Shown: positions 1 to 20,810 of the stretch, piece by piece
Position numbering within the stretch: the first letter of the stretch is position 1
Layout of the letters: each line of letters starts with the position of its first letter
DNA from: a virus
Virus record (IMG/VR): IMGVR_UViG_3300047335_000171
Coordinates: 1-21,618 of that record
DNA length: 21,618 nt
Strand: one strand, 5' to 3'
Made by a program: the position numbers and the translations under genes
Notes under the pieces: model-generated
Told to the model about the DNA's origin: nothing
Seen by the model: only the letters and a program-made list of their open reading frames with translations
Databases searched by the model: none

Positions 1-1522
1 AATCATGAAGTTCTTTGCCGGTCATGGTTTTAGTTAATGTCTGATCCTGCAAGTGATCGATAAATTCGATGATTAGTTCGGCATGATCCTGATCCAGCAT
101 ATGTTGCACTTCAAGAGTACAAAATATCCCATCCCATGCCTCGGCTCTTTGCGTCGCACTTAATTTTGTCAATCGTTCGTCGATTAACTTCATCGTCTCG
201 ATCGGTTGCACTTGCCCGACTAAAGTCTCTGGCGACATGTTCAGTGCACGGATAGCAGACGGATACAGGCTATTGATGTCTACTGCCCCAACATGATCGC
301 GCAAACCCTTACGCGGTTGAGCAACATAGGCTCCGACGACCGGAGAAGTGGTATCTTCATCATCGTCATCATCTGCTACTACTGCACTATCAGGGATTTC
401 ATCATCGTCTGAATCATTTTCTGACTCACGTGGTTTGCGATCCGGCACGACGCGATCAAGCGCATGCATTTCGTTGATAATCGCTTGCTCAACAAGAGCC
501 ACCGATCCCATCGTCGTTTTCAATAAAACGCAGTTGGCATGGGCAATCTGGTTGGCTAGTTCGATGAACTTGTATTTCTGATCGATCTTGACCATCAACA
601 TGACATCTTGACGGTTATATTCGATGAATTTGGCTAAATCTTTTTTATACAGATCATCGAGAGTTCCATCATACGGCGTTTTGACATCACCAACATCGGC
701 TTCAGCGATGGCATTGAGCGCATAAGACAGTCTTTGTTGCGTATTGTGCTTGCGATACAGCTCGATGTAATCAAGATGTACTCGCCCAAACAAGTCGTAA
801 GTCGTTAACGGCCGTCCGAATTTATCGGTGTAATCGCGTTTCTTCGGTAAGTAATTCCAAAGACAGAAACGTCGAGTATCATTTGCGCTGAGAATTTTCC
901 CGACGCGATTGACCAGATAGGGGATATCATACGAACTTGAATTCCACCCGGCGACGCAATCAACGTCTTCAATGCCATCCAAGAACGCATTCAGAAGGTC
1001 GCTCTCACGATCGAACATGAAGGTGTCATCAAACCCTGCGGCAATCGCTTGAGCGGCTTGTAGGGTCTTTGTAGGCGGACACAGCACATAGCTGATCAGT
1101 TTCTGGTCAGCGGATCGATACAGAGAGATGGCAGTGACAGCATTGAACGGATCATGCGGTGGGGCAAAACCTTTGATCGGATGGAAATCCGCCTCGATGT
1201 CGAAGAACCCGACATTCAGTGTCGGAACATCGGCCCCCATATAATTGTCCGCCAGATAGCGGAATACTGGATTGATGTCAGACTCAAAAATGCGTCGCCC
1301 GAGACGCTTCTGTTCGTTTAGCGCGCTGCGGAATTTCAAACCTGATGATGTGGCGACTCGTTTGCAGGCGTGTCCGAAGATCGATCGATGTGCACCACTT
1401 TGATCTTCATAATAAAAGACATAATTTGCAGGAACTTGAAGTAATTCACGTCGTCCATTTCGACGTTCAGCAATGAATATTTGATCACTCTTGCGATCCA
1501 GCACAGCATCAATATAGCTCAA
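1..1522 (-). CDS. 43: T4-type family B DNA polymerase, N-terminal 507 residues (cut by window edge)
   Basis: Replicative DNA polymerase with 3'-5' proofreading exonuclease. Visible order: N-terminal domain (about 1-104); Exo I with FFDIEAD (D108, E110); Exo II with AGWNSSSYDIPYLVNRV (around 191-207); Exo III with YNRQDV (302-307); palm motif A with VDINSLYPS (D415). These match T4 gp43 in order and almost in residue number (T4 D112, E114, D408). The fingers, rest of the palm, and thumb lie beyond the left edge. I chose the TTG at 1522 because an AGGAG lies 7 nt upstream and the frame closes at a TAA soon above it; no ATG offers a comparable start. Between exonuclease and palm there is an extra, strongly acidic stretch (about residues 366-394) that T4 gp43 lacks. 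Identification is very secure; the start is fairly secure. Confidence 0.95.
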   Translation of the reverse strand, partial: MSYIDAVLDRKSDQIFIAERRNGRRELLQVPANYVFYYEDQSGAHRSIFGHACKRVATSSGLKFRSALNEQKRLGRRIFESDINPVFRYLADNYMGADVPTLNVGFFDIEADFHPIKGFAPPHDPFNAVTAISLYRSADQKLISYVLCPPTKTLQAAQAIAAGFDDTFMFDRESDLLNAFLDGIEDVDCVAGWNSSSYDIPYLVNRVGKILSANDTRRFCLWNYLPKKRDYTDKFGRPLTTYDLFGRVHLDYIELYRKHNTQQRLSYALNAIAEADVGDVKTPYDGTLDDLYKKDLAKFIEYNRQDVMLMVKIDQKYKFIELANQIAHANCVLLKTTMGSVALVEQAIINEMHALDRVVPDRKPRESENDSDDDEIPDSAVVADDDDDEDTTSPVVGAYVAQPRKGLRDHVGAVDINSLYPSAIRALNMSPETLVGQVQPIETMKLIDERLTKLSATQRAEAWDGIFCTLEVQHMLDQDHAELIIEFIDHLQDQTLTKTMTGKELHD

Positions 1523-1527
1523 ATACT

Positions 1528-1571
1528 CTCTCCTCTGATTGTCCGATATTACTTATGCGGACAGAGGAGAG
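1528..1571 (-). promoter_or_regulatory. Leader hairpin sequestering the polymerase ribosome binding site
   Basis: On the minus-strand RNA, CUCUCCUCU (1571-1563) pairs perfectly with AGAGGAGAG (1536-1528), and GUCCG (1562-1558) pairs with CGGAC (1545-1541). A 4-nt bulge (1540-1537) and a 12-nt loop (1557-1546) complete it. The Shine-Dalgarno AGGAG (1534-1530) is entirely inside the outer stem, 7 nt before the TTG start. T4 gp43 is known to repress its own translation by binding a leader hairpin next to its ribosome binding site, so an autogenous operator is a natural reading. The pairing is seen; the function is inferred. Confidence 0.7.
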
Positions 1572-1575: not shown

Positions 1576-1732
1576 AACCACAAAAAGCGATTGCAGAGAT
1601 CGATTACGGATTTCTGCCTTGACAGGCAAAATCATCCGCCATAAGCAGGTGACGAAACGGCAGTCCGTCGTGCAGACGGTTTAAAATACAATCTGTAACG
1701 GATGCAGCGGTGTTTTCCGCCGTACAGGCGGG
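1574..1732. other. Non-coding gap with several short hairpins
   Basis: No credible gene is seen between the polymerase leader and the exported-protein gene. The stretch contains short perfect stems: CCGCC/GGCGG just after the upstream stop codon, CCGTC/GACGG around 1665-1679, and GCCT/AGGC around 1617-1628. None is followed by a good T tract on the minus strand, so none is a convincing terminator. It may be a structured 5' leader for the polymerase message. Confidence 0.35.
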
Positions 1733-2434
1733 TTATGGTACGATCGTATAATCTCGGAAGGTGGGAGTGCCTTTGAATGGTTTGGTCGTCACTCGAACAT
1801 ATAGGCCAAAATGTTCATCAGACACTTGTGCAGTTGCCGTAAAGTCATGCAGTCGGCACGTGTCATCGTCACACATGCCGCTGCTATCATGTAGAATCGG
1901 CACGCTCAATTTCCGAATGAATTGATCGCCAGACTGCACATACAAATGCCAATTTTGATCCGTTTCACCTTGCCCTGTATAACCTGGAGTTGTGACGACG
2001 ATCATACCGAAATAGCCGGCACTAATAACCTGAATATTTGGCGCTTTGCCAAATCCGCCTTCTTCTGCGACCTTCGGTGAGCCAGCATTAATCGTCCAGC
2101 CTTTGTCGGTTTCAAGCAAATCAGCCATGCCAATGTAAGCCCCATCCGCATGAGACGGATCAGACGGCTCAGCAGCGATGACCAAACCAACATGATGCCG
2201 ACTAAATCGATCAAGCCATGACAACCTGCCTTTGACAGTCAAAAGGCAATCAGGCTGACATAATGGAAACGCCGGACCAGATAGCGATTTGCCGTCGTAC
2301 AAATCACCCATGAGATTATTGTCACTGCCTAAGTCGTGTAGCGGAAATCGATCGGCACCAGGAAATGACGTAGGTTCGCCAGCTTGAGCAGAGCCAATGG
2401 CTGCAAGCAAAGCTAGAACATGAGTAAATCGCAT
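1733..2434 (-). CDS. Exported protein of unknown function
   Basis: A 233-residue protein I do not recognise. The N-terminus is a classical Sec signal peptide: short basic start (MRFTH), hydrophobic core, and a likely signal peptidase I site after AQA (about residue 18). There is no lipobox cysteine. The mature part is mostly polar with beta-like spacing and has four cysteines in two pairs (PLCQPDC near the N-terminus and GMCDDDTC near residue 190), which could form disulfides in the periplasm. A weak purine-rich GAGAG precedes the ATG. It lies downstream of the 2435-2767 repeat gap and upstream of the polymerase. Signal-peptide-bearing phage proteins may act in the host envelope during infection, but nothing here assigns a specific role. 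Confidence 0.8.
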   Translation of the reverse strand: MRFTHVLALLAAIGSAQAGEPTSFPGADRFPLHDLGSDNNLMGDLYDGKSLSGPAFPLCQPDCLLTVKGRLSWLDRFSRHHVGLVIAAEPSDPSHADGAYIGMADLLETDKGWTINAGSPKVAEEGGFGKAPNIQVISAGYFGMIVVTTPGYTGQGETDQNWHLYVQSGDQFIRKLSVPILHDSSGMCDDDTCRLHDFTATAQVSDEHFGLYVRVTTKPFKGTPTFRDYTIVP

Positions 2435-2469: not shown

Positions 2470-2580
2470 AAGTTCTAGACGCTGACCAGTTGAGATCGAT
2501 TATGTACGTTTTTGAAGTTTTCAATTTTGATTCGTTTGAATCCGCACAAATGCAATCCAAATGGTCTTCGTCTAGAACTT
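2470..2580 (+). ncRNA. Structured 111-nt unit 1 (candidate RNA element or cruciform)
   Basis: The unit starts AAGTTCTAGACG and ends CGTCTAGAACTT. With one extra base at each end (2469, 2581) this is a 13-bp perfect inverted repeat, continued after a 2-nt mismatch by GACCA (2484-2488) with TGGTC (2562-2566). Inside are two small hairpins: TTGAA-GTT-TTCAA (2512-2524) and GATTC-GTTT-GAATC (2529-2542). The layout is a closing stem with two internal arms. It shares length and landmarks with unit 2. It lies in a 333-bp gap (2435-2767) with no plausible gene on either strand. The strand is assigned from unit 2. Confidence 0.5.
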
Positions 2581-2592
2581 TCTGATTTGTCC

Positions 2593-2622
2593 GTTATATT
2601 TCTTGACTCGGATTCGTGTAAA
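2593..2622 (-). promoter_or_regulatory. Possible promoter for the exported-protein gene
   Basis: Minus-strand TTTACA (2622-2617) and TATAAC (2598-2593) are 18 nt apart, between the two 111-nt units and about 160 nt before the ATG at 2434. Transcription from here would cross unit 1. It is a weak match and purely sequence-based. Confidence 0.25.
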
Positions 2623-2658
2623 ATCAACAAGATCTGATCAAATCATCCAAATTTCACG

Positions 2659-2769
2659 AAGTTCTAGGTGATGACCGGTTTAAGGCAGTTATGCATGGAT
2701 CTGCCGTTTTCTGATTCGTTTTGTCAGAAATCTGTCAAATCGACTCAAACAGGTCATTGTCTAGAACTT
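2659..2769 (+). ncRNA. Structured 111-nt unit 2 (homologue of unit 1)
   Basis: Same length as unit 1. AAGTTCTAG (2659-2667) pairs with CTAGAACTT (2761-2769). The next three positions, GUG (2668-2670) against UGU (2758-2760), pair only as G-U wobbles in plus-strand RNA, followed by AU/AU and GACC/GGUC. The outer stem is therefore 18 continuous pairs on the plus-strand RNA and is interrupted on the minus-strand RNA. Internal arms are GGCAG/CTGCC (2684-2688, 2701-2705) and TTTCTGA/TCAGAAA (2708-2714, 2724-2730). TTATG sits at offset 30 and GGTC at offset 93 in both units, and both share TGATTCGTTT. The right end overlaps the stop codon of the minus-strand ATPase gene. Confidence 0.5.
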
Positions 2770-4324
2770 AGAAATCCTTCAGTTGTTGCAGAGCGGCTTT
2801 CATCCGACGAAGGCATTCCATTTCGTCAAATTCAATATCGATGGCTTCACGCAGGCTGGTAAAGGATTCGCCATGCCAAGATACATCGATATGGGTCACT
2901 TCGTGCTTGGCATAGGTCATAAGTCGTTTGAGATCACGACGCTTCGATACGAGATAATCTAATTTGCCTTCGGCATTCACCGGTCGCAGACAGAACACAT
3001 GACCGCCGTCTTGGTCATGGCACATGGCTAATTTGGCTTCAGAGAATAAAAATCCAACCGCATAAGGTATGCTTGTCTTTCCAAGTGAGTTCAGCGCGAC
3101 TTCGATCGTATAGCTGACCGCTGTCTGCCAGAGCAGCAAAACGCGGAGGATATTGCCGCCTTTGCGATAGGGCCGATCGCCATAAGGCCCATACACGATT
3201 TGCCAGCTACGCGGATCATAGGCTGGAATGTTTTTCCGCATGGCGGAACTTTCTGCTTCATCAAAGATGTAGATGTCGCCAAAAGTTTTCTCAAACCACG
3301 AGTCAAAGGATTGGACTTCGGTATAGGTTACTTCACTGAAATCGTCATCCTTGACGTCGTTGGACGTAAACGCTGCCAGATCAGGCGTTTTATCGGCAAT
3401 TACAACTTGATTTTGTAGGCTTTGACGCTTGGTCTTCTGATCAACCTGCTTGGCACGAACGACTTTCATGCCGCCAGCCCGATGCACGGTCGTATGTTTA
3501 CCAAAGCGTGAATTCAAGGCATCTGACGTATTGATCGACAATTCGCGCAAGAACCGTGCGAGCACTTGGGCATAGATTGAGCGCAATCCATCACGATTGG
3601 CGGTCAAGACATTGCGCGACATCGATGGGTCAAGTTCAACCAACACTTGGGCATTGGCTTCGGTGCTCGATGAAAACATCGACACGCCATTCACCCGGAT
3701 GATCACACGCTTGGATTTGTGGCTCTTGTTCACCCAGACTTTAGCGAAAGCCTTTCCATCGGAAACCAGATCACGCACATGGCGACCAGGATAAGCCGAT
3801 TTATTGCCGATACGCTGACCGTTGACGGTCACACGTGCCGGGATACGGCTCTCGGTCAGAAAGGTCTCTAACGCGTTTTGCATGGTCGTCAGGCTGTAGC
3901 CATCGACTTCGATGATCAATTTGCAGCCTTCGGTATGGACATGATCCAGCACATCGTAATGACCGCCGCGACCGACCACTTCATAGTCTTGCGATAGGAT
4001 ACGATACGCTTGCATCGCAAAACAGGTCAGAATGCGAGCCCGACCCATGCCGCCGATCTTGGTTGGATCTTGATCCTTCGTGCTGTTGCCGATTTGGAAA
4101 TAAACATTTTCCAATACGTCTCGGCTCATACCAGGACCGTTGTCAGCAAATGTCAGTTGCACGAAGCTGCCATCGGCTGAATCGGTCAGTCCGATATCAA
4201 TGGCGGTAACCGCCTGATCAATGGAATTTTGAAACAGTTCACGCCATACAGCGACAGGCGGATTGCTGTAGGCTTGTTCACGCTCTTTCTTCCAGAAGGT
4301 CGGTGAGATCTGAACCTGCGGCAT
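2768..4324 (-). CDS. GHKL (HSP90-like) ATPase with C-terminal HExxH motif
   Basis: The 518-residue protein begins with a GHKL/HATPase domain. It shows an N box WRELFQNSIDQA (E29, N33), an ATP-lid aspartate motif DNGPGM (61-66) and a glycine motif GGMGRAR (91-97), so ATP binding looks intact. The middle (about 190-290) resembles the transducer region that follows such domains. Near the C-terminus HEVTH (474-478) followed by H484 resembles a zincin metallopeptidase active site, preceded by a beta-rich stretch. The ATG at 4324 has GGAG upstream and a strong promoter (4351-4378). T4 rIIA also carries a GHKL domain, but similarity is limited to the ATPase motifs, so I do not name it rIIA. The ATPase assignment is strong; peptidase activity is tentative. 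Confidence 0.85.
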   Translation of the reverse strand: MPQVQISPTFWKKEREQAYSNPPVAVWRELFQNSIDQAVTAIDIGLTDSADGSFVQLTFADNGPGMSRDVLENVYFQIGNSTKDQDPTKIGGMGRARILTCFAMQAYRILSQDYEVVGRGGHYDVLDHVHTEGCKLIIEVDGYSLTTMQNALETFLTESRIPARVTVNGQRIGNKSAYPGRHVRDLVSDGKAFAKVWVNKSHKSKRVIIRVNGVSMFSSSTEANAQVLVELDPSMSRNVLTANRDGLRSIYAQVLARFLRELSINTSDALNSRFGKHTTVHRAGGMKVVRAKQVDQKTKRQSLQNQVVIADKTPDLAAFTSNDVKDDDFSEVTYTEVQSFDSWFEKTFGDIYIFDEAESSAMRKNIPAYDPRSWQIVYGPYGDRPYRKGGNILRVLLLWQTAVSYTIEVALNSLGKTSIPYAVGFLFSEAKLAMCHDQDGGHVFCLRPVNAEGKLDYLVSKRRDLKRLMTYAKHEVTHIDVSWHGESFTSLREAIDIEFDEMECLRRMKAALQQLKDF

Positions 4325-7397: not shown

Positions 7398-7426
7398 AAT
7401 ATAGATCGACAGTTTGTCCTAATCAA
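7398..7426 (-). promoter_or_regulatory. Sigma70-like promoter for the DsbA-like gene
   Basis: Minus-strand TTGATT (7426-7421), 17-nt spacer, TATATT (7403-7398). The -35 overlaps the stop codon of the upstream ligase-like gene. Good hexamers and ideal spacing make this one of the best promoters in the window. Confidence 0.6.
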
Positions 7427-8393
7427 GTGAAGTAATCGGCCATGTCATCCAAGCGCGCGATTGTTTTGCTTGATATAACGCATCCGGTTTTTTCAACATT
7501 AATGCGCGCTCGCCGCGCTCGATAGCCTGACGGACAAATTCTTCGAACAGTTGGTTTCCAGCTTTGCTATCCAAATCAACTTCTACCTGTGGCACTACAC
7601 GAATCAAACGCGACGCGGAAAAAACCCCGGATGTCTGAAGCTGTTCAAGTATCCGGCGCCGTTGCTGTTGCGTCTTGTTAGATGATTTCGCGCGAAAATC
7701 CTCTAACTGTATGATGTCGAATAACAGATACTCGCCACTGCCCGTGATCACACCGTCAAGTACAATCGAAGCCGTCAAGTGTGCTGCGATCAGACATAAT
7801 GGCTGCAACAACTCAACAGGCAGTTCATAGGACATACCCTTTGTGTCGTAAGACCAAGCAGATTTATCAAGCACTGTGATACAGCGTTTTCCGGCTATAT
7901 CGACATCAATGAGATAGTGCCCGGTTTGCGGACGATCCAGACATCGAGTTGCCATCTGACAGCGAAATTGGGGGATTTGAAAAGCCTCTGCGGCTGAGCC
8001 AAGGCGTTTAAGAACTTTGTTCATGACCGTCTGATCAATGACTCGCAGATCTTTTAACAATACACGACGATATAATTGATTCCACGTCACAGCATGACAG
8101 GTTTCAGCGGCTTGATTGATAGCCGCTCGTGCCGTATCACCACTTAATTTTCGTGTTCGCAAATCATTACATAATTGCAGAAAACTCTCGCATGTCAGCG
8201 ATCCCGGATCGCCGTCATCTTCGAGAATTTCAGCCACTTTCTTGATGCCAAAATTGATAAATGGATCCATCGCTAGCCGCACAAGTATAAAAAACTCGCG
8301 ACAGTTCTGTCCATAGGCGTCTAATAATATTTGTTCTTTGCGTTGGCGAGATGGCGCCACCGCCAATTGTTGAATGACGTCAATAGCACGCAT
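7419..8393 (-). CDS. Catalytically degenerate relative of T4 gp30 DNA ligase
   Basis: 324 residues against 487 in T4 gp30. The N-terminal helical domain matches gp30: RTRKLSGDTARAAI against T4 ATRKLTGNAAIEEL, and RRVLLKDL followed by NKV against RRVMMRDL and NKV. In the nucleotidyltransferase core, the position of the AMP-accepting lysine (T4 QLKADGAR, K159) reads DVDIAGKR, with D165 in place of lysine. Motif III DGEL reads DGVI (glutamate lost). The motif IV region is recognisable (GERALMLKK). Motif V, KFK in T4, reads MTW, and the protein ends there without the OB-fold domain. It should be unable to form the enzyme-adenylate. It may be a structural or DNA-binding derivative, or an inactive partner of a true ligase encoded elsewhere. 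The frame is open and apparently maintained. Confidence 0.7.
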   Translation of the reverse strand: MRAIDVIQQLAVAPSRQRKEQILLDAYGQNCREFFILVRLAMDPFINFGIKKVAEILEDDGDPGSLTCESFLQLCNDLRTRKLSGDTARAAINQAAETCHAVTWNQLYRRVLLKDLRVIDQTVMNKVLKRLGSAAEAFQIPQFRCQMATRCLDRPQTGHYLIDVDIAGKRCITVLDKSAWSYDTKGMSYELPVELLQPLCLIAAHLTASIVLDGVITGSGEYLLFDIIQLEDFRAKSSNKTQQQRRRILEQLQTSGVFSASRLIRVVPQVEVDLDSKAGNQLFEEFVRQAIERGERALMLKKPDALYQAKQSRAWMTWPITSLD

Positions 8394-8408: not shown

Positions 8409-9029
8409 CTAAAAAGCTACGATTTTCGGCGCACCGTGCAATATTTTATCAAGTTCATCACGTTGAATGACGACATAACCATGGTTGTTTAACATCGAGA
8501 CCAGTTTTTGCGGCCAATCAAGATCGGCTGTTTTATATCGTTCAGGGAGTTCATCCCAAGGTCGGAGCAACGGATGAGTCTTTTCGGTGGCATCAAACAC
8601 AGCCCCGTAGCGCCATCCGGCGTTGCTACGTTCATGCAACCAATCTTCGTGCTGCTGACGCGCAAATGCTAAACACAATGCAAGATGTTGATTTGCGTCG
8701 AGGGGAATGGTTGCCTCATCGCGCGCTCGCAAACGCGTTTCATTGGTTTCTACATCAAAATCTAAATCCGGCTGTTTAGCAGCGAATTTTTCAACAATCG
8801 CATCTACTTCGGAAGGATGCAGATCGCGGGTCAACGGCACAAGATAAGCATGGCCATGATCCGTGACCTGATGAACCAATCGCGTGACATGACGCACGTC
8901 ATCATCATCCTGAACCGGAATAGGATTGATAATGCCGGACGGTGCTTTTGATGAAACAGCGTTGAACCACGCTTTAATGGACGATTTATCAAGCGCATCA
9001 TCAGTCATTAGTTTTATAAAACGATCCAT
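8409..9029 (-). CDS. RyR-domain protein
   Basis: 206 residues. The C-terminal part (about 118-187) fits the RyR domain first described in ryanodine receptors: LCLAFARQQHEDWLHER, AGWRYG, a DATEKTHPLLRPWDELPE block, a lysine/aspartate stretch, and a final helix with LVSMLNNHGYVV. These are the hallmark H..W..R..GW.YG...D...K.HP.L..(W/Y)DELPE positions. The N-terminal 115 residues are acidic, possibly a separate domain, and not recognised. RyR domains are found in phages and bacteria, and have been proposed to bind small nucleotide-derived ligands in conflict systems; their biochemical role in phages is not established to my knowledge. It is preceded by a CTAAATAA motif (9055-9062). A second ATG at 9008 is possible, but the first has the better upstream purine stretch. 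Confidence 0.8.
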   Translation of the reverse strand: MDRFIKLMTDDALDKSSIKAWFNAVSSKAPSGIINPIPVQDDDDVRHVTRLVHQVTDHGHAYLVPLTRDLHPSEVDAIVEKFAAKQPDLDFDVETNETRLRARDEATIPLDANQHLALCLAFARQQHEDWLHERSNAGWRYGAVFDATEKTHPLLRPWDELPERYKTADLDWPQKLVSMLNNHGYVVIQRDELDKILHGAPKIVAF

Positions 9030-11120: not shown

Positions 11121-11954
11121 TTAATTAGATTGTTTGCTTACGGCTTCGGCAATCTGCCGTAATACAGTTTGCTGATCAACAGGTATAATTGGATACTGAA
11201 TAAACAATTCGACCAACAGATCACCACGATGGCCTTGAGCATCGCTCATACCCTGACCCGCCAATCTTAATTTCCGTGTTGAATCAAATCCGGTTGGAAT
11301 GGCAACGCGCATAGAATGCCCATCGATTCCAACCACTTCAATTTCATTACCCAATAACACGTCAAATGCGGTCACTGGAATCGTCGTCAGCAAGTTCATC
11401 GCTTGACGAGTAAAACGCGGATGTGGAATTGTCCGGACAATGATATGCAGATCACCGGGACGCATATTTGGGCCGGATTGCTGACCGCCTTGCTGGACGA
11501 CCAGACGCATTCCATCGTCGATGCCTGGCGGAACTTTGATTTTGAATTCTCTGATTTCACCGCCAGCGGTTTGCGCCGGAGCCTGCACCTGAAGTTCTTT
11601 ACCAGTGAAGATTTCTTCCAGAGACATACGCACTTCTAGGTGTAAATCCTGTCGTTGTTGCGCATGCAAGTTTCTGAACAGATCATCGAATGGCGAGCGA
11701 CCATGAAACATATTACCGGGATCAAAATTGAATTCGAAATTAAATGGATTGCCACCGGGTTGAAAATTTGCTTGTGGTTGCGGATTGACGATGGAATCGT
11801 ACGCGGCATTGATTTCCTTGAACCGCGCCTCCGCCGTGGGATTGTTGGGATGCAAATCCGGATGACAGGTTTTTGCCAGTCGTTTGAACGCTGCCTTGGC
11901 TTGCTCGGGTGTCGCTCCTCTCTGTAGTTCTAATGTCGCATAAGGATCAATCAT
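11121..11954 (-). CDS. DnaJ/CbpA-type J-domain co-chaperone
   Basis: 277 residues. The J domain occupies 1-65 with the essential HPD at 31-33. A G/F/N-rich linker follows (about 60-95, FQPGGNPFNFEFNFDPGNMF), then two C-terminal substrate-binding domains (VRMSLEEIFTGKE..., IKVPPGIDDGMRL, RPGDLHIIVRTIPHPRF, GNEIEVVGIDGHSMRVAIP, KLRLAGQGM). There is no cysteine-rich zinc finger, so it is a class B (CbpA-like) Hsp40. It should stimulate the host DnaK, perhaps for capsid or replication protein folding. The start overlaps the stop of the lipoprotein gene by 4 bp (ATGA), implying translational coupling. A complete DnaJ in a phage lysis/virion block is not usual. Confidence 0.93.
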   Translation of the reverse strand: MIDPYATLELQRGATPEQAKAAFKRLAKTCHPDLHPNNPTAEARFKEINAAYDSIVNPQPQANFQPGGNPFNFEFNFDPGNMFHGRSPFDDLFRNLHAQQRQDLHLEVRMSLEEIFTGKELQVQAPAQTAGGEIREFKIKVPPGIDDGMRLVVQQGGQQSGPNMRPGDLHIIVRTIPHPRFTRQAMNLLTTIPVTAFDVLLGNEIEVVGIDGHSMRVAIPTGFDSTRKLRLAGQGMSDAQGHRGDLLVELFIQYPIIPVDQQTVLRQIAEAVSKQSN

Positions 11955-14404: not shown

Positions 14405-15397
14405 ATGATTATCGCTGAAATTTTATTCGGAAGTTCATTGTATGGCACCGCGACCGCGACGTCGGATATTGACGTGAAAACGGTTTTCGTTCCACCGGTT
14501 CGCCAAATTCTTTTGAATCGCATACGAATACATGAAAGCAATCGCCGCGAGAAAGCTCAGGGTGAAAAGAATATCGCTGGCGAAATCGACATTGAGTCAT
14601 TTGCTTTTCATCATTATCTAACCCTTCTCGCAGAAGGTCAAACCTTGGCGCTCGATATGCTGTTCGCGCCGGATTGGGCCATGCAGCGAGCCCCTCACCC
14701 AGTATGGAAAGAATTGGTCGATAATCGACATCTCTTGGTTAGCCGACAGGCAGCAAAATTTGTCAACTATTGCCGCGATCAAGCGCGGAAATATGGCATT
14801 AAAGGCTCACGCATTCATGCTCTACGGATGTTAGTGGCTTGGTTTGATCTGGAAATTAATCGTGTTGGTCCGAACGCACGATTGCGTGATGTGGCAGATA
14901 CTCTCCCTGACTGGATTTCCAGTCATGGAATCGAACACACTCAAATCATTATGATCAAACAGGCGAACGGTGGTGAAGCACCGCATTTGGAATGTTGTGA
15001 TAAAAAAGCACCATTCACTGTTACCTTGAAAAATGCTCAGGTAATCTACGCGACCGCTTTAGCCGAATATGGTGATCGTGCGTTGATGGCTGAGTCGAAT
15101 GAAGGCGTTGATTGGAAAGCCTGCTCGCATGCAGTTCGTATCGGCTATGAAGCTCTTGAATTTCTCAACACTGGCTGGATTACATTTCCTCGACCGGATG
15201 CCGCTCATTTGCTGGCTATCAAGCACGGTCAGATTCCGTACCAAGATGTTGCTCAGGAAATCGAGTCACTGATGGATCAAGTGGTAGCAGCACAGGCAAC
15301 GTCAAATCTCCCGGATAAACCGAATTATGAATACATCGATAATATCGTGTGCCGTGTTTATGGCGAAGCTGTGCAAAAAGCACCGCCATTTGCTTAA
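14405..15397 (+). CDS. RlaP/YcgL-like nucleotidyltransferase (DNA polymerase beta superfamily)
   Basis: 330 residues. The N-terminus carries the signature of the polymerase-beta fold, GSSLYGTATATSDIDVK (G9, S10, then D21 and D23 as metal ligands). A further acidic residue set in EIDIESFAFHHY (around 61-72) would supply the third carboxylate. The rest is helical, with FVNYCRDQARKYGIKGSR and RIGYEALEFLNTG, matching the large family of predicted nucleotidyltransferases that includes B. subtilis YcgL and the RNA-ligase-associated RlaP proteins. Such proteins are widespread in phages; family context suggests nucleotide addition to RNA ends. AAAGG precedes the ATG. It is transcribed from its own promoter and converges with the metallophosphoesterase gene 24 bp away. 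Confidence 0.85.
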   Translation: MIIAEILFGSSLYGTATATSDIDVKTVFVPPVRQILLNRIRIHESNRREKAQGEKNIAGEIDIESFAFHHYLTLLAEGQTLALDMLFAPDWAMQRAPHPVWKELVDNRHLLVSRQAAKFVNYCRDQARKYGIKGSRIHALRMLVAWFDLEINRVGPNARLRDVADTLPDWISSHGIEHTQIIMIKQANGGEAPHLECCDKKAPFTVTLKNAQVIYATALAEYGDRALMAESNEGVDWKACSHAVRIGYEALEFLNTGWITFPRPDAAHLLAIKHGQIPYQDVAQEIESLMDQVVAAQATSNLPDKPNYEYIDNIVCRVYGEAVQKAPPFA

Positions 15398-19898: not shown

Positions 19899-20810
19899 AT
19901 GACCACTCAAAATGAAGTTTTAGACAATCCTAAGTATCTGCCACTGCTTGATTATGGTTTTGTCGGGCTGACCGATTCTATGGGAAATGATGCTTCGATT
20001 GTTAAAGCGGCACGTGTCTCATACGGCACTGGCACGAAATCCGTCTCGGAAGATCGCGGTCTGATCCGCTATCTGCTGCGACATCATCATTCCTCACCGA
20101 TCGAGCAAGTTTCATTTCAGTTTCACATAAAAATTCCAATCTTTGTCGCCAGACAACTACTCAGACATCGGACTGCGAGCGCGAATGAGTACTCGGCTCG
20201 TTACTCGATTATGTCCGATGAATTCTATCTGCCTGATGCATCACATATTGAGCCACAAAGCACGACAAACAAACAAGGCCGTGCAGGCAGTATCGATGAC
20301 CATTCGAAGGAAGGTGTGCGGTGGCTGATGCAAACCGCCTACGAAACTTCCTACGCCACTTACAAAACACTTTTGGGCCAACGCGATGAACAGGTCATGG
20401 TTCATTATGATCCCTATGGCGATAATCCTTTATTAACCGAAGAGTTTCCAGGCATCGCACGCGAACTAGCAAGAACTGTTCTGCCAGTAGCAAACTACAC
20501 CGAATGCTATTGGAAATCGGATCTTTCGAATCTGTTCAAGTTGCTCAAACTGCGTCGCGACAGTCATGCGCAATATGAAATTCGCGTATTGGCAGATGCG
20601 ATGTATCGGCTTATCCAGCCGATCGTGCCGCTGGCTTGTGAAGCATTCACGGACTACATGATGGAAGCCGTGACTCTCTCGCGCATGGAAGTCGCACTAT
20701 TGCGCGATTTGCTAGCCAAACAAGATAAAATCACGGATGAAGACGCTCAGGCGCATGGACTGACAAAGCGTGAAATCAGTGAATTCCGCCGTCGATTCTA
20801 TTCGGATTGA
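19899..20810 (+). CDS. thyX: Flavin-dependent thymidylate synthase ThyX
   Basis: 303 residues. The ThyX signature RHR-X7-S is exact (R89, H90, R91 and S99 in RHRTASANEYSARY). Other family features are present: SSPIEQVSFQFHIKIPIFVARQ upstream, and ARTVLPVANYTECYWKSDLSNLFKLLKLR downstream (about 192-220), which binds flavin and substrate. The enzyme methylates dUMP to dTMP using methylenetetrahydrofolate, FAD and NADPH, supplying dTTP for phage replication. The length is slightly above the usual 220-250, from the insert at about 113-135. The last 13 bp overlap the convergent gene at 20798. Confidence 0.97.
   Translation: MTTQNEVLDNPKYLPLLDYGFVGLTDSMGNDASIVKAARVSYGTGTKSVSEDRGLIRYLLRHHHSSPIEQVSFQFHIKIPIFVARQLLRHRTASANEYSARYSIMSDEFYLPDASHIEPQSTTNKQGRAGSIDDHSKEGVRWLMQTAYETSYATYKTLLGQRDEQVMVHYDPYGDNPLLTEEFPGIARELARTVLPVANYTECYWKSDLSNLFKLLKLRRDSHAQYEIRVLADAMYRLIQPIVPLACEAFTDYMMEAVTLSRMEVALLRDLLAKQDKITDEDAQAHGLTKREISEFRRRFYSD

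Follow-up and report, generated by a model that had tools for sequence, protein, structure and literature searches.

The stretch of DNA analyzed here, hereafter the window, comprises 21,618 nt of the IMG/VR virus record IMGVR_UViG_3300047335_000171 and carries two quasi-palindromic units, w1 and w2, between two genes of the minus strand (Table 1). The rIIA-like gene upstream of the pair in transcription order ends in a TAA stop codon that borrows its AA from the end of w2 (minus-strand junction GATTTCTAAGTTCTAG), and the start codon of the gene on the other side lies ~36 nt past w1. Two small hairpins of the Cas6f type sit between the polymerase gene and this downstream gene.

Table 1. Positions of the repeat units, flanking genes, and other features. 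Positions without prefix are those of the window; G001 and L049 refer to contig IMGVR_UViG_3300047335_000127.
Feature	Position	Strand	Description
Family B DNA polymerase (T4 gp43-like)	2..1552	-	truncated by contig end
Cas6f-type hairpin	1665-1679		CCGTC-GTGCA-GACGG, with TTTAAAAT tail
Cas6f-type hairpin	1717-1731		CCGCC-GTACA-GGCGG
233-aa gene	1733..2434	-	signal-peptide-like N-terminus, no family match; downstream of array
Unit w1	2470..2580	+	111-nt quasi-palindrome; arms 2470-2487, 2563-2580
Spacer w1-w2	2581..2658	.	78 nt; no recognised promoter or terminator
Unit w2	2659..2769	+	111-nt quasi-palindrome; arms 2659-2676, 2752-2769
rIIA-like protein	2768..4324	-	GHKL ATPase domain; upstream of array
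DNA ligase-like protein	7419-8393	-	adjoins RyR-domain protein
RyR-domain protein	8409-9029	-	adjoins ligase-like protein
Phage DnaJ	11121-11954	-	J and C-terminal domains
Decayed unit copy	G001 14850-14937
Unit ga	G001 14987-15097		good copy
Unit gb	G001 15107-15216		good copy; mosaic
Unit gc	G001 15227-15336		good copy
Cas6f-type hairpins	G001 20590-20604, 20650-20664, 23639-23653
Cas7f/Csy3	L049 1-1155	+	PF09615, 2e-53; cut by contig start
Cas6f/Csy4	L049 1134-1823	+	PF09618, 4e-13
Cas6f-type hairpins	L049 1878-1892, 1932-1946, 1993-2007		after Cas6f; 5-bp stem, 5-nt loop
Homing endonuclease, GIY-YIG-like	L049 18783-19850	-	NUMOD3-bearing; between gp25-like and gp6 genes
NusG homologue, phage-encoded	L050 1921-2469	-	PF02357, 6e-27

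Geometry of the paired units

An earlier reading of this DNA, made from the sequence only, had described two units of equal length whose starts lie 189 nt apart, with common ends AAGTTCTAG/CTAGAACTT and shared TTATG and GGTC motifs, and all of these features are indeed present in both units. A further shared element, TGATTCGTTT in mid-unit, likewise occurs in each, but in a register that is off by 5 nt, such that its start-to-start spacing from w1 to w2 is 184 rather than 189. AAGTTCTAG is found in all four arms, and exact copies occur nowhere else in the 21.6-kb window. The closing stem of w1 forms 16 of 18 Watson–Crick pairs with two mismatches, and that of w2, read as plus-strand RNA, forms 15 Watson–Crick and three G–U pairs, as had been reported. 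The inner parts of the two units are homologous in one shared orientation (58% identical, z 4.0), and overall identity is 66%.

A scan for palindromes with 16-nt arms and a span of 80 to 150 nt, carried out on 85 stretches (1.4 Mb) from the window's and related phages, returned, besides the window, only a second contig, G001, in which two family members were picked up, and three AT-rich single hits. Palindromes in which 15 or more of the 18 positions pair gave 16 register hits, compared with a mean of 0.56 and a maximum of 9 in first-order random copies of the window. A lone palindrome of this quality is not decisive; the common ends, length, and loop of w1 and w2 are, and the observation of paired structured units is real.

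A second array, probably in the same phage lineage

Scanning IMG/VR with the pattern AAGTTCTAG-N(85-115)-CTAGAACTT returned 18 stretches, only one of which is homologous: L007, or record IMGVR_UViG_3300047335_000127 (G001, 24.2 kb). Three looser pattern scans of IMG/VR added no further family members, and a distant blastn search of phages and plasmids gave nothing useful. The other candidates (L004–L021 except L007, L042–L048, and L144–L152) reflect chance or coding sequence and have no similarity in their inner parts; among them, L046 from Limnothrix (27.7 bits) owes its selection to the ends pattern and occurs once in its genome. With the three good copies in G001, five are known. A covariance model, R1, was built from these five, and their own scores, such as 104.6 bits for w1, are not independent evidence. 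Applied to 53 other records of jumbo phages, R1 recovered no unit; these comprise Agrobacterium phage Atu_ph07, Sinorhizobium phage Phosso, and SCTP-2, together with 50 that carry a gp6 homologue, among which no score exceeded 15.6 bits.

The G001 array has a 120-nt period and the same orientation relative to its flanking genes as the window array. Tandem units share a repeated TCAAAATCTC-type flank, and the loop region lacks symmetry, its conservation following a single direction. Unit w2 is more similar to ga (77% identical) than to its own neighbor w1, and gb is a mosaic of a gc-type left arm and a ga-type right arm.

Both arrays lie between minus-strand genes, in agreement with the gene setting first described, and each begins where the gene upstream of it terminates, at the stop codon. 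In G001, the array starts ~2 bases beyond the stop of the gp6 baseplate gene and is followed by the gene for a 4245-residue structural protein. In the closest relatives, L063 and L064 (gp6 61% identical), the same two genes abut as TAAATG with no gap, and in Atu_ph07 and Phosso, gp6 and the next gene abut or overlap; G001 holds ~590 bp where the genes of its relatives abut, and the array is therefore an insertion. No empty-site relative was found for the window array, the rIIA-like protein used as bait having recovered no relative from IMG/VR. The junctions of both arrays lack a clear target-site duplication, and neither a Y1 transposase nor an autonomous element was recognized in the two contig fragments. 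The homing endonuclease gene on the other side of gp6 in G001 has no counterpart ahead of gp6 in Atu_ph07 or Phosso.

Apart from a trivial match, no protein is common to the window and G001, and outside the arrays and one small hairpin their DNA shows no similarity of comparable strength. The tetranucleotide signatures of the two contigs correlate at r 0.58; the runner-up among 49 other contigs has 0.27, and halves of a single record give 0.46 to 0.57. The nearest relatives of the window polymerase are Phosso (46%) and Atu_ph07 (44%), the RyR-domain, ligase-like, and polymerase genes are ordered as in Phosso, and the gp6 protein of G001 is likewise closest to these two phages. Given the common signature and nearest named relatives, the arrays represent two sites in one lineage; the contigs probably both belong to an Atu_ph07/Phosso-like jumbo-phage lineage and may derive from one genome. 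The DnaJ encoded in the window agrees with its reported occurrence in a jumbo-phage group that includes Atu_ph07 (PMC7824862), and a NusG homologue is encoded on L050.

Folding, strand, and origin of the units

On the plus strand, w1 and w2 fold with z-scores of -5.7 and -5.9, and none of 200 shuffles reached the native values on either strand. Across the five units, the mean z-score is -5.4 for the plus strand and -6.2 for the minus strand, with individual minus-strand values of -8.3 (w1), -6.0 (w2), -4.1, -3.4, and -9.2. Consensus structures are found on both strands; the minus-strand inner fold differs but is of similar quality. The two conserved inner arms of the proposed architecture are weak: 76% of their cells pair, on a structure that was itself derived from these sequences. 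The 90 closing-stem positions of the five units hold three plus-strand G–U pairs, all in w2, no A–C pair, and seven other mismatches, and no bias in fold or wobble toward one strand is consistent across the five.

Pairing is for the most part kept across the units, in part through compensatory change, which bears out the claim that pairing was retained despite divergence. Compared with ga, unit gc has changed on both sides of the stem, in a compensatory manner, at positions 10, 12, and 13; in the mosaic gb these changes are disrupted. Compensation in quasi-palindromes can also arise by templated correction, and such changes alone therefore do not prove an RNA; they are compatible with selection on RNA or DNA structure or with templated correction. 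A consensus scan found no plus-strand sigma-70–type promoter in either array, and no terminator-type T run follows the stems; an intrinsic terminator, that is, a short GC stem with a T run, was sought at the arrays and is absent. The Rfam 15 covariance models gave no match above gathering score in the window, in agreement with the sequence-only reading, which could name no RNA family.

The sequence-only reading favored a plus-strand noncoding RNA transcribed against the gene cluster. The three G–U pairs in w2 and a plus-strand consensus fold with two inner arms point in this direction, but transitions yield plus- or minus-type wobbles equally, so that three of three plus-type wobbles have a probability of 1/8, and the four other closing stems contain none. 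With no plus-strand promoter and a minus strand that folds equally well, this strand argument is weak, and we regard selection for a plus-strand RNA as very unlikely. Since the arrays lie between minus-strand genes, read-through RNA would be minus strand, and if the units yield RNA at all, the simplest candidate is the operon transcript of the minus strand. It is conceivable, if on balance doubtful, that the units are primarily cis-acting hairpins selected in this message rather than mobile DNA, with roles in protecting the 3′ end, in nuclease processing, or in uncoupling translation. The position of both arrays at the stop of the first of two minus-strand genes, their common orientation to transcription, and minus-strand folds that are at least as strong as the plus-strand folds would all fit, but none of the 90 stem positions carries a minus-type wobble, no T run lies behind the stems, and the 53 jumbo-phage records devoid of units argue that such an element is not generally needed at gp6.

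A DNA site, extruded as a cruciform or bound by protein during replication start, recombination, packaging, or segregation, would account for strand-symmetric folding, the tandem layout, and the gc changes compensated on both arms; the occurrence of the units at two locations inside unrelated operons and a loop whose asymmetry and one-direction conservation exceed the needs of a plain palindromic site make this improbable. Promoter–stem-loop cassettes resembling the PeSLs of T4-type phages, which would seed recombination between genomes, share with the units a home in related myoviruses, an intergenic position at more than one site, and shuffled arms, as in the gb mosaic. Neither array has a sigma-70–type promoter or a promoter followed by a short terminator, however, and we give this reading almost no credence.

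The reading that we favor, at about even confidence, is that w1, w2, and the G001 units belong to a lineage-specific, dispersed family of intergenic quasi-palindromes of ~110 bp, REPIN- or MITE-like in build and read through on the minus strand. Two unrelated gene neighborhoods, an insertion at the gp6 junction relative to relatives, clustering, and partly kept pairing are observed; mobility and function are what we infer. Each unit runs from the conserved end AAGTTCTAG (9 bp) through 5 bp that vary but are mostly self-complementary, a GACC that is again conserved, and ~75 nt of diverging loop to the mirror arm. Such units may have inserted between genes directly behind a stop codon and then formed tandem clusters, of two in the window and of three plus a decayed one in G001, spreading as miniature nonautonomous elements handled as hairpins by an enzyme encoded elsewhere. 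They might be tolerated as merely long intercistronic hairpins in the minus-strand operon transcript, and these hairpins might, in addition, retard decay of the upstream message from its 3′ end or decouple the two genes. A more far-reaching version, in which a virus-borne REPIN-like hairpin element moves within and between jumbo-phage genomes, inserts at stop codons, and is served by a phage-encoded enzyme, strikes us as unlikely. Intergenic space in lytic phages is small, and dispersed palindromic repeat families, well known in bacteria, have to our knowledge hardly been described in such phages; the insertion and the empty site of the relatives offer a concrete case for studying spread, the choice of stop codons as targets, and effects on the operon.

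Comparison with known repeat systems

Single CRISPR repeats (Racr) and mini-arrays occur in phages (PMC11656645). Like these, the units are small structured intergenic repeats, and this phage lineage also has Cas6f-type hairpins; the 111-nt units differ in that a scan found no Cas6f-type hairpin (5-bp stem, 5-nt loop) within any of them, and we discarded a tie between the two. The Cas genes and hairpins of L049 may represent a mini-array or CRISPR locus of type I-F–like character in a phage. Neither Atu_ph07 nor Phosso has Csy4, Cas7f as bait found only itself, and the spacer-like stretches of 37 to 46 nt beside the hairpins have no local match.

PeSLs, in the account of Arbiol 2010 and Comeau 2014 cited in PMC4503421, pair an early promoter with a stem-loop in T4-type phages and, so described, resemble the units as intergenic repeated structured cassettes of T4-related myoviruses. 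The early sigma-70 promoter next to a short terminator stem-loop that marks PeSLs is not seen here, where the structure is a long quasi-palindrome.

REPINs, doublets of REP sequences that form hairpins in Pseudomonas and other bacteria, have inverted conserved ends, a fixed-length variable spacer, compensatory changes, an extragenic location, and ordered clusters with flanks, and GII doublets measure 110 bp (PMC3116915). The units parallel them in two inverted conserved ends, a spacer, a hairpin with compensatory change, and extragenic, ordered tandem clusters with copied flanks. They depart from REPINs in that the arm AAGTTCTAGNNNNNGACC lacks the GTAG/CGTC tag and small palindrome, so that their ends are not REP, and in that few copies are known, all phage-borne; no RAYT (Y1 tyrosine transposase) was found in the two genome fragments.

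MITE-, ERIC-, and Correia-type palindromes are intergenic elements of ~100 to 150 bp with terminal inverted repeats that are cotranscribed with neighboring genes. The units are similar in size, terminal inverted repeats, dispersed intergenic copies, and, probably, transcription with adjacent genes, but have no sequence match to these elements and no clear target-site duplication, and both of their known sites are tandem clusters. The units thus seem to constitute a new palindromic repeat family, REPIN- or MITE-like in build and presumably mobile.
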